64,000 nt of DNA from Rhizobium mongolense subsp. loessense (GTDB lineage: Bacteria > Pseudomonadota > Alphaproteobacteria > Rhizobiales > Rhizobiaceae), in contig NZ_FMTM01000008.1 of the NCBI RefSeq assembly GCF_900099775.1, forward strand, positions 62,001 through 126,000, in the 5' to 3' direction. How positions within the stretch are numbered: the first letter of the stretch is position 1; each line of letters begins with the position of its first letter. Under the pieces are notes generated by a model. That model saw only the letters and a list, made by a program, of their open reading frames with translations, was not told the DNA's origin and did not search any database. This document shows, piece after piece, positions 28,642-31,419 of this stretch. The position numbers were made by a program, and so were the translations under genes.

Positions 28642-30027
28642 TCAGACAAGCATGCTCATCGGGTTTTCGATATAGCCCTTGAAGGCCTGCAGCAACTCGG
28701 CGCCGAGTGCACCGTCAACGCAACGGTGGTCGGTCGAAAGCGTGATGCTCATCACGGTCGCGATCGCCATTTCGCCCTTCTTGACAACGACGCGCTGCTC
28801 GCCGGCGCCAACCGCAAGGATCGTCGCGTGTGGCGGGTTGACGACGGCTGCGAAGTCCTTCACGCCCATCATGCCCATGTTCGAGACCGAGGTCGTGCCG
28901 CCCTGGTATTCCTCAGGTTTGAGCTTGCGGTCCTTGGCGCGCTTGCCGAGATCACGCATCTCGTTGGAGATGGCGGACAGCGTCTTTTCTTCAGCCTTGC
29001 GGACGATCGGGGTGATCAGCCCGCCTGGAATGGAGACGGCGACGCCGACATCGGCATGCTTGTGCTTGACCATGTTGTTTTCGGTCCAGGACACATTCGC
29101 GTCCGGAACGTCTCGCAGCGCGAGCGCCATCGCCTTGATGACCATGTCGTTGACGGAAAGCTTGTAGGCCGGAGAACCATCCTTGCGAGGGGCGGAATCG
29201 TTGAGCTGGGCACGAAGCGCCAGAAGCGCATCCAGTTCGCAATCGACGGTGACGTAGAAGTGCGGGATGGTCTGCTTGGATTCCACCAGACGGCGGGCAA
29301 TCGTCTTGCGCATGCCGTCATGCGGCACCAGCTCGTAGGAGCCCGGCTCGAAGAGCTTGAGGACAGCCTCTTCCGGTGCCCCCTTGGCTGCAGGCGCAGG
29401 GGCCGCAGCAACCTGCTGCGCCGCCGCAGCAGCAGCGGGAGCCGCTTTAGCGCCACCACCGGCGACGGCGGCCTCGACATCGCTCTTAACCACACGGCCG
29501 CGCGGGCCGGAACCGGCAATTGCGGAAAGATCTATACCGGCTTCCTTGGCCAGACGCCGCGCGAGCGGCGAGGAGAAGGTGCGTGTGCCGCCCTCGCCCT
29601 TCGGGGCCGACTGCAGCGGCACCTCAGGGTGAGGGCTCACATTGGCATTTGCGGCAAGCAGGGCAGCGGCGGGCGCGGTGCCTTTCCCTGCCTCATCCCG
29701 AGGGGAAGAAGCGCTTTGGGCTTTCACCTCGAAGGACGAGGCAGCAGCCGAACCCGCGCCGCTTGCAGCGGCAGCAACGTCCTCGCCTTCGCCGGCAAGA
29801 ACCGCAATCAGCGCATTGACCTTGACGCCTTCCGTACCGGCCGGAACGACGATTTTGGCAATCGTGCCCTCATCGACGGCTTCGACTTCCATTGTCGCCT
29901 TGTCTGTCTCGATCTCGGCGATCACATCGCCGGACTTGACGGTGTCGCCTTCCTTGACGAGCCACTTGGCCAGATTGCCTTCTTCCATCGTCGGAGAAAG
30001 GGCTGGCATCGTGATGTTGATAGGCAT
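28642..30027 (-). CDS. pdhC: pyruvate dehydrogenase E2, dihydrolipoamide acetyltransferase
   Basis: E2 is the core of the pyruvate dehydrogenase complex and moves acetyl groups from E1 to CoA. The 461-residue product has one lipoyl domain (1 to about 78, lipoyl Lys43 in T-D-K-A), a linker, a peripheral-subunit binding domain (about 150-185), a second Ala/Pro linker, and the catalytic domain with D-H-R-x-V-D-G (His434). The first linker (about residues 96-146) is unusual: it is encoded by two palindromic repeats and lacks the usual Ala/Pro run. The gene is third in the pdhA-pdhB-pdhC series. Confidence 0.96.
29591..29635. repeat. palindromic repeat inside pdhC, copy 1
   Basis: The plus strand begins CCCTCGCCCTTCGGGG and ends CACCTCAGGGTGAGGG, which fold back on each other with few mismatches around a central CTGCAG. 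On the coding strand it translates as part of the PdhC linker ([17 protein letters not shown]). Its form is that of the CCCTCA...TGAGGG palindromic elements I recall from rhizobial intergenic DNA. Confidence 0.6.
29691..29741. repeat. palindromic repeat inside pdhC, copy 2
   Basis: The plus strand starts CCTCATCCCGAGGGGAAG and ends CTTTCACCTCGAAGGACGAGG, again an imperfect inverted repeat, 55 bases from copy 1. In PdhC it encodes the start of the unusual linker (about residues 96-112). Both copies keep the reading frame. Confidence 0.6.
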
Positions 30028-30045
30028 CGAAATACCCTCCCCTTG

Positions 30046-31419
30046 TTATTTGTAGCAGACAGCCTTCACCGCATCGACGACTTCGCCGACATTCGGCAGA
30101 GCCAGCTTCTCGAGGTTGGCGGCATAGGGCATTGGAACGTCCTTGCCGGCAATCGTCAGGATCGGTGCATCGAGATAGTCGAAGGCCTGCTGCATGACGC
30201 GGGTGGCGATTTCCGTGCCGACGGACGACTGCGGATAGCCTTCCTCGACCGTGACCAAGCGGCCCGTCTTCTTGACCGATTCGATGACGCTCGGCAGATC
30301 CATCGGACGGATGGTGCGAAGGTCGATCAGTTCGACGTCGATGCCGAGTTTTTCGAGTTCGGCGGCGGCCTTCGTGGCATAGGTCATGCCAATGCCCCAT
30401 GAAACGACGGTCGCATCCTTACCTGGACGGTGGATACGGGCCTTGCCAATCGGCAGTACGAAGTTATCGAGCTTCGGCACGTCGAAGTGCTGGCCGTAGA
30501 GGATTTCGTTCTCGAGGAAAATGACCGGGTTCGGATCGCGGATGGCGGCCTTTAGCAGTCCCTTGGCGTCCGACGCCGTGTACGGCATGACAACCTTGAG
30601 GCCCGGAATGCTCGAGTACCACGCAGCGTAGTCCTGGCTGTGCTGGGCGGCAACGCGGGCAGCCGCGCCGTTCGGGCCGCGGAAGACCATCGGTGCGCCC
30701 ATCTGGCCGCCTGACATGTAGAGCGTCTTGGCGGCGGAATTGATGATCTGGTCTATCGCCTGCATGGCGAAGTTGAAAGTCATGAATTCGACGATCGGTC
30801 GTAGGCCGGCCATAGCAGCACCGACGCCGATGCCGGCAAAGCCGTGTTCGGTGATCGGGGTATCGACCACGCGGCGCGAGCCGAACTCCTGCAAGAGGCC
30901 CTGGGTTACCTTGTAGGCGCCCTGGTATTCGGCAACTTCCTCGCCCATGACGAAGACGCTTTCGTCGGCCCGCATTTCTTCGGCCATGGCGTCGCGAAGC
31001 GCTTCGCGAACGGTCATCGACACCATCTCGGTGCCTGCCGGGATTTCCGGATCGTTCGGAACGAACGCCTTAGGCTCGGCCGGAACGGGCGCCTGGGCCG
31101 CCGGTTTTTCCTCGGCCTGTGGAGCCGGAGCCGGCTGTGCGGCGGGAGCTGCCGCGGAGATGTCTGAAGCCGATTCGCCATCCTGCAGCAGCACGGCGAT
31201 CTTGGCGTTCACCTTGACATTTTCGGTGCCGGCCGGGACCAGCAGCTTGCCGATCACGCCTTCGTCGACAGCTTCGACTTCCATCGTCGCCTTGTCGGTT
31301 TCGATTTCGGCAATCACATCACCGGAAGTGACCTTGTCGCCTTCCTTCTTGAGCCATTTGGACAGCGTGCCTTCTTCCATCGTCGGAGAGAGGGCGGGCA
31401 TGAGGATATCGATAGGCAT
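30046..31419 (-). CDS. pdhB: pyruvate dehydrogenase E1 beta with lipoyl domain
   Basis: This 457-residue subunit forms the E1 component with PdhA and decarboxylates pyruvate using thiamine diphosphate. An N-terminal lipoyl domain (1 to about 78, Lys43 in T-D-K-A) is joined by an Ala/Pro linker to the transketolase-like beta domain (from about 135). That domain includes [12 protein letters not shown] and D-T-P-I-T-E-x-G-F-A-G-I-G. A lipoyl domain on E1 beta is a known feature of alphaproteobacterial complexes. It is 15 bases after pdhA and 18 before pdhC. Confidence 0.97.

Follow-up and report, generated by a model that had tools for sequence, protein, structure and literature searches.

Introduction

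Rickettsial palindromic elements (RPEs) were reportedly described by Ogata et al. (2000, 2002), and Rhizobium-specific intergenic mosaic elements (RIME), of which RIME1 is said to hold two palindromes, by Osteras et al. (1995). According to the papers cited here, RPEs are about 150 bp long, nearly half of them lie in genes (PMC10969869), and they form in-frame, translated palindromic inserts in protein-coding genes of an alphaproteobacterium (PMC10969869, PMC3733652). CGTC- and GTAG-tagged REPs are described in PMC3733652 as short, mostly intergenic palindromes, the CGTC type being mostly alphaproteobacterial and without an associated transposase. CGTC-tagged elements carry an unpaired terminal CGTC, TGTC or CCTC, a stem of 8-9 bp, a loop of 4-5 and a 3-base tail that is mostly CCA. 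HH dimers predominate among tagged REPs, and some copies are intragenic, even two per ORF; uvrB of R. conorii is also interrupted by a REP insert, and flexible linkers were proposed to tolerate such inserts (PMC3733652). RIME are rhizobial intergenic repeats (PMC2573895), and Br-REP1 and Br-REP2 of Bradyrhizobium are alphaproteobacterial intergenic palindromes (PMC5082802).

We analysed a stretch of 64,000 nucleotides from Rhizobium mongolense subsp. loessense (the window), in which two palindromes lie within pdhC. They belong to a family of alphaproteobacterial palindromic repeats, CCTCATCCTGAGG...CCTCGAAGGACGAGG, defined in this analysis. The family shares in-frame translation with RPEs (a likeness of behaviour only), from which it differs in being 41-51 nt long, rhizobial and mainly intergenic. 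By description it resembles RIME, which are likewise rhizobial intergenic repeats. The consensus sequences of Br-REP1 and Br-REP2, as printed in PMC5082802, are unlike it. We kept the family apart from the CGTC-tagged REPs, since it lacks both their unpaired tag and their tail: its CCTC pairs with a terminal GAGG, and it has 12 arm pairs, a longer, variable centre and a GAGG end. A literature search with the arm sequences gave only papers that were unrelated by their titles, and the literature covered, which took in little of the subscription literature, yielded no mention of the repeat in an E2; the available text of PMC3733652 names no E2. In-frame palindromic inserts are already known, as Rickettsia RPEs and intragenic REPs; what is new here is that they recur at a single linker.

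Results

Two palindromes in the E2 linker

The domain order of PdhC in Pfam (lipoyl, E3-binding, acyltransferase) is that of an E2. The locus has the following features.

28642..30027, minus strand: pdhC, dihydrolipoamide acetyltransferase (E2) of pyruvate dehydrogenase, 461 aa (ORF; Pfam Biotin_lipoyl, E3_binding, 2-oxoacid_dh)
28648..29340, minus strand: E2 catalytic domain, residues 230-460 (Pfam PF00198)
29473..29577, minus strand: E3-binding (peripheral subunit-binding) domain, residues 151-185 (Pfam PF02817)
29591..29635, minus strand: palindromic element copy 1, 43-45 nt, encodes residues 132-146 (strict family pattern; model R1, 48.1 bits)
29636..29690, minus strand: spacer of the inverted pair, 55 nt, about 19 residues encoded (sequence; spaced '-+' family pairs elsewhere)
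29691..29741, plus strand: palindromic element copy 2, 51 nt, read by the gene in reverse orientation, encodes residues 97-112 (model R1, 33.7 bits)
29797..30018, minus strand: lipoyl domain, residues 4-77 (Pfam PF00364)

A sequence-only reading of the window had described two imperfect palindromes with self-complementary ends, in frame in the pdhC linker. We found both at 29591-29635 and 29691-29741, between the Pfam lipoyl and E3-binding domains, and the CCTC start does pair with the terminal GAGG. The same reading overstated its case in denying the encoded linker the usual Ala/Pro composition, since copy 1 contains four Pro and one Ala in 15 residues. Copy 1 reads CCTCACCCTGAGG...CCCCGAAGGGCGAGG on the gene strand and copy 2 reads CCTCATCCCGAGG...CCTCGAAGGACGAGG on the strand opposite the gene. 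The two are members of the same repeat family in opposite orientations, a link that had been missed.

Both copies fold stably as gene-strand RNA (copy 1, -30.4 kcal/mol, z -3.85; copy 2, -26.6 kcal/mol, z -4.13), with none of 200 shuffles as stable for either copy. On the opposite strand, z was -3.88 for copy 1 (0/200 shuffles) and -1.73 for copy 2 (12/200). No Rfam family reached its gathering score over the palindromes, and a fixed-spacing pattern gave 0 matches in the window because element lengths vary. An AlphaFold model (pTM 0.53, mean pLDDT 65) left residues 80-148 without secondary structure; it was set aside as linker evidence, as the lipoyl domain was mostly below 50 too.

Two neighbouring frames were noted at the locus. 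The gene at 30046-31419 (minus strand), which adjoins pdhC and which we take to encode the E1 beta subunit, has an N-terminal lipoyl-like domain of its own, with 69% identity to that of E2 (residues 1-112). An antisense open frame of 558 aa at 28726-30402 (plus strand) spans nearly all of the E2 gene; with a codon score of 0.18, lower than the 0.32 of E2, it is probably a shadow frame.

Definition and distribution of the repeat family

We built a covariance model, R1, from 28 genus copies of other genomes, with no window sequences, and used in addition a strict family pattern, CCTCRYCCTGAGG-N(8-38)-CGAAGGRYGAGG, with the reversed pattern as control. R1, run on the whole 6.7-Mb own genome, recovered both copies, with rough E-values of 4.7e-5 (copy 1) and 0.02 (copy 2), and each window copy has 11 of the 12 arm pairs of the family. 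Weak palindromes are common in GC-rich repetitive linker DNA, and the repeat finder did not list these hairpins, as would be expected had they arisen by chance from GC-rich linker codons. That origin is excluded for practical purposes because both copies match a family model built without them; the reversed-pattern controls were all 0.

The strict pattern matched 90 of 148 genus genomes, with up to 27 copies per genome, and 24 of 385 genomes sampled class-wide (reversed control 0 in each). Elements came in two sizes, short (~41 nt) and long (~49 nt). The family is nearly missing from the own genome. R1 detected one further clear copy there (C16:898981-899020, 43.2 bits; three in total), though weak copies may be missed because 150 of 5875 first-look candidates were scored. 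Strict patterns found one pdhC copy each and nothing else, and a BLAST search of the own genome with the 161-nt stretch returned 38 rows, mostly short chance-like matches. The expectation of further copies in this genome was thus borne out by at least this clear one, in a genome where the family is almost absent, and with so few copies no local donor is visible. A half-site pattern with two mismatches was too noisy for copy counts (105 matches vs 44 in the control), and a fragment near C16:394,900 that by eye resembled an eroded copy had no R1 match and was not counted.

To place the copies relative to genes, we took 100 genus loci from the matches listed by the strict pattern, which held 107 copies (105 distinct, two being counted twice). 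An ORF test based on codon scores placed 100 of these copies (98 of the distinct ones) outside any coding-like ORF, 3 at an edge and 4 inside. Of 500 positions drawn at random from these loci, 236 fell inside a coding-like ORF, 97 at an edge and 167 outside. On plasmids, the best places in all 45 annotated records were outside listed genes; the set comprised 60 records (58 Rhizobium, 2 Methylobacterium), many of them near-copies of one another and 15 of them without annotation, and the gene table was incomplete. The family is therefore repeated and mainly intergenic in the genus, in keeping with the earlier statement that such rhizobial palindromes occur between genes, and a copy inside a gene is the exception. 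Two of the four copies scored as intragenic were set aside: in L288 Pfam found no domain and the frame looks antisense, and the frame of L293 also looks antisense.

Arrangement as an inverted pair

In the direction of the gene, copy 2 is reverse and copy 1 forward, forming a '-+' pair 55 nt apart. Pairs of this kind were found by a strict test in 9 of 14 stretches, most of which had been chosen on suspicion of pairs, with spacers of 16-128 nt. Among the matches listed, pairs within 300 nt were all '-+' in the class sample (9/9, counted by eye); in the genus, 3 were '-+' and 4 same-direction (by eye, n=7), and no '+-' pair within 300 nt occurred among the matches listed in either set. The strict pairs in the 100 genus loci numbered three, all '++'. 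Genus pairs therefore do not bear out '-+' as the usual intergenic arrangement. Inverted dimers predominate among CGTC-tagged REPs; in this family the '-+' pairs of the strict test come from pre-selected stretches, and same-direction pairs are equally common in the genus. The two pdhC copies are likely to have entered as one pair insertion rather than as two separate hits.

History of the insert in the genus

In an alignment of 50 PdhC proteins from 60 genus genomes, the linker type was present in the window protein only. The 49 other aligned proteins and 14 further genus proteins have other, mostly Ala/Pro, linkers. When 148 genus genomes were searched with the 93-aa linker, six more carriers were found at 119-166 bits (G093, G120, G073, G070, G141 and G140), and the other 141 scored at most about 70 bits. 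Conservation of the linker throughout the genus, which would speak against an insertion, was thus absent, the related linker being confined to 7 of the 148 genomes.

In a tree of 70 genes from which the linker columns had been removed (quick search), the seven carriers formed one side of a branch with an SH-aLRT of 99. A single ancestral insertion in this seven-species clade is likely because the carriers are 7 of 148, form one clade and have this branch support; gain and loss are indistinguishable from the tree itself. The E2 proteins of four clade members are 461-463 aa long and those of three are 447-448 aa, compared with 442-458 aa in the other aligned genus members. Since the carriers are hardly longer than their relatives, much of the Ala/Pro linker must, to judge from these lengths, have been lost or replaced, which a simple insertion leaves unexplained. 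The sister linkers are too diverged for a clean-ended empty site to be read in them, so where the insertion ended, whether its target was duplicated and how many events took place are inferred.

The E2 linkers of two other loci, L054 and L249 (in G041 and G125), hold a different odd segment, KPNNGERVGNGAP, which is unlike the palindrome-encoded peptides.

Decay of the palindromes within the clade

We next compared the insert among the seven clade members. The reading frame was kept in all seven. Arm pairs, assigned by eye, numbered 11 of 12 in both window copies and 8-11 of 12 in the sister species. Copy 2 is homologous in the six sister species and eroded in most of them, its first arm being deleted in G070. 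The peptide of copy 1 varies within the clade (PHPE, AQPE, PQPE, PNAE, PHSE, PRTE), and the underlying changes in copy 1 are mostly one-armed, with no matching change opposite. The exception is a T-A pair in G070 vs C-G in most others, a two-sided change that, taken alone, would favour structure. The 107 copies used for comparison had been chosen for their intact arms and hence provide no control for erosion.

Over 21 pairs, pN/pS was 0.79 for copy 1, 0.24 for copy 2 and 0.18 for the rest of the linker, the values for the insert regions resting on 15 and 16 codons only; it was 0.07 in the lipoyl part and 0.12 in the part after the linker. Copy 2 and the rest of the linker look moderately constrained. 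Drift of the DNA structure under a frame requirement fits these observations.

The hairpins might instead be a selected regulatory device, acting in ribosome pausing between domains, in mRNA processing or as a DNA site for protein binding. Their high fold stability as mRNA (z -3.85 and -4.13) and the recurrence at one site described below would suit such a role, but arm pairing decays in the sister species, G070 lacks one copy 2 arm, and a related linker is absent from 141 of the 148 genus genomes. Because the palindromes erode while the frame is kept, we regard a hairpin function as very improbable. We consider it just as improbable that the peptide was itself co-opted for some new binding role. 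Maintenance of the frame in all seven clade members, and the identical frames in five lineages (see below), would be expected of such a peptide; against this, the copy 1 peptide is variable (pN/pS 0.79) and the frames are explicable by avoidance of stops and of hydrophobic frames.

Recurrence in E2 linkers of other lineages

R1 was applied to the E2 loci of 80 named alphaproteobacterial records. Elements were found in two, a Pseudolabrys MAG (L150) and a Hyphomicrobiales MAG (L156), each with two elements, '-' then '+', within the lipoyl-to-E3-binding linker. A linker profile run over 397 genomes of the order matched 16, and R1 on the 15 loci other than our own confirmed two more, L367 (G910) and L373 (G756). 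With R1 applied to the profile matches, E2 carriers thus number at least 3 of 397 in the order sample, including the window. L367 combines a strong second element (48.7 bits) with a weak first one (19.2 bits). L373 (G756:C13) has the most intact E2 pair, at 1505-1558 and 1612-1654 (55.8 and 55.3 bits), and on this sequence evidence is probably the youngest insertion.

A class-wide profile (26 of 385 matched) and a broader order profile (12 of 397) gave no further E2 with R1 support, and none of seven additional class-wide profile places, fetched and scanned, was an element-bearing E2. The following were not counted: L372, a Devosia-like relative of L156 with a single weak linker match (19.9 bits, E 0.056); L402 (G631), which had a good linker-profile score and no element by R1; and other profile matches, which either were without R1 support or had it and lay outside E2 (L385, L392, L404, L409, L411 and L418).

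The frames are identical in all five E2 lineages, with start positions 1 and 0 modulo 3. The first element reads ..SFE...P(R/Q)D(E/K) and the second P(H/R)PE. The distance between elements varies over the five (107, 56, 77, 65 and 107 nt). We built an E2 tree of 95 proteins (linker columns removed; 23 of 118 loci without a full E2 dropped; quick search, no mixture model), in which the starred branches forced at least five changes. Near neighbours without a counted element include Bradyrhizobium, Xanthobacteraceae, Rhodobium and Devosia-like sequences.

A single ancient insertion into the E2 linker of the Hyphomicrobiales ancestor, retained in a few descendants and replaced by Ala/Pro sequence elsewhere, would explain why the linker, the '-+' order and the frames are the same in 5/5 lineages, and the weak, uncounted match in the L372 linker could be read as a remnant of it. 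The tree, however, would then demand many losses, given at least five forced changes, and the inter-element distances are unequal. Moreover, the pair of L373 is near-perfect, yet the Rhizobium clade has already lost 1-4 of 12 arm pairs. We therefore judge an ancient insertion to be improbable, if less so than a hairpin function or a recruited peptide. That L373 is near-perfect (55 bits) while palindromes erode within the Rhizobium clade argues for separate, younger insertions, and the four other Hyphomicrobiales lineages most likely gained their linker pairs by independent insertion, as far as sequence comparison can tell.

In-frame copies in other genes

Two further inserts were convincing. 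In UvrB (L208, G071:C59), an in-frame inverted pair lies in the C-terminal tail after the UVR motif, with elements at 1501-1543 and, as a weak partner of 26 bits, 1387-1429. In L329 (G077:C1), an in-frame inverted pair (1201-1249 and 1351-1393) precedes the second CoA_transf_3 stretch of a two-stretch CoA_transf_3 fusion protein of at least 816 aa. All seven in-gene pairs examined (five in E2, one each in UvrB and the CoA-transferase) were '-+'.

Open frames of 555 and 537 aa that include a pair-encoded peptide, ASSFET..PQDEA...PHPEE..SKD, were also seen at L392 (G517:C56) and L411 (G778:C1). They may be gene tails or chance frames.

Discussion

The sequence-only reading proposed that intergenic repeats had inserted into a gene and were kept because the linker tolerates them. 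Our results support this, as the family is mainly intergenic and relatives have other linkers. In the mechanism we favour, an inverted pair ('-+', ~150 bp) of the intergenic repeat would have entered the pdhC linker in the ancestor of a seven-species Rhizobium clade. The linker is specific to that clade, and we would prefer gain over loss and one event over two. The insert may have been retained because, in its length and orientation, it preserved the frame and gave a soluble, unstructured peptide (SSFE..PRDE...PHPE..PKGEGG), which would stand in for some of the Ala/Pro linker by which the swinging lipoyl domain is tethered. As the palindromes drift and the frame is kept, the insert would now be ordinary linker and no DNA or RNA device.

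Taken as a whole, this account (insertion of an ancestral '-+' pair, a linker kept in frame, later drift of the palindromes, and independent insertions in the other lineages) is in our view highly probable. We do not hold it more firmly, and leave a small share of belief to the ancient insertion, because pair orientations in the genus are mixed, E2 length is unchanged in three clade members and L372 has its weak match.

We also propose, tentatively and at a strength a little short of probable, that the E2 linker is a recurrent landing site, where pairs were acquired independently at least five times, each time as '-+' with the two frames unchanged, and were domesticated as ready-made linkers. 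If this is true, mobile intergenic DNA would be a repeated source of inter-domain linkers, including those in UvrB and the CoA-transferase fusion.

In these free-living bacteria, selfish intergenic DNA becomes part of an essential enzyme, and the sister species display the aftermath, in which the palindrome decays and the frame stays. Its recurrence in five lineages makes a countable process of what would otherwise be an isolated oddity. With matched carriers and non-carriers, the length and composition of the linker in the pyruvate dehydrogenase complex become testable.
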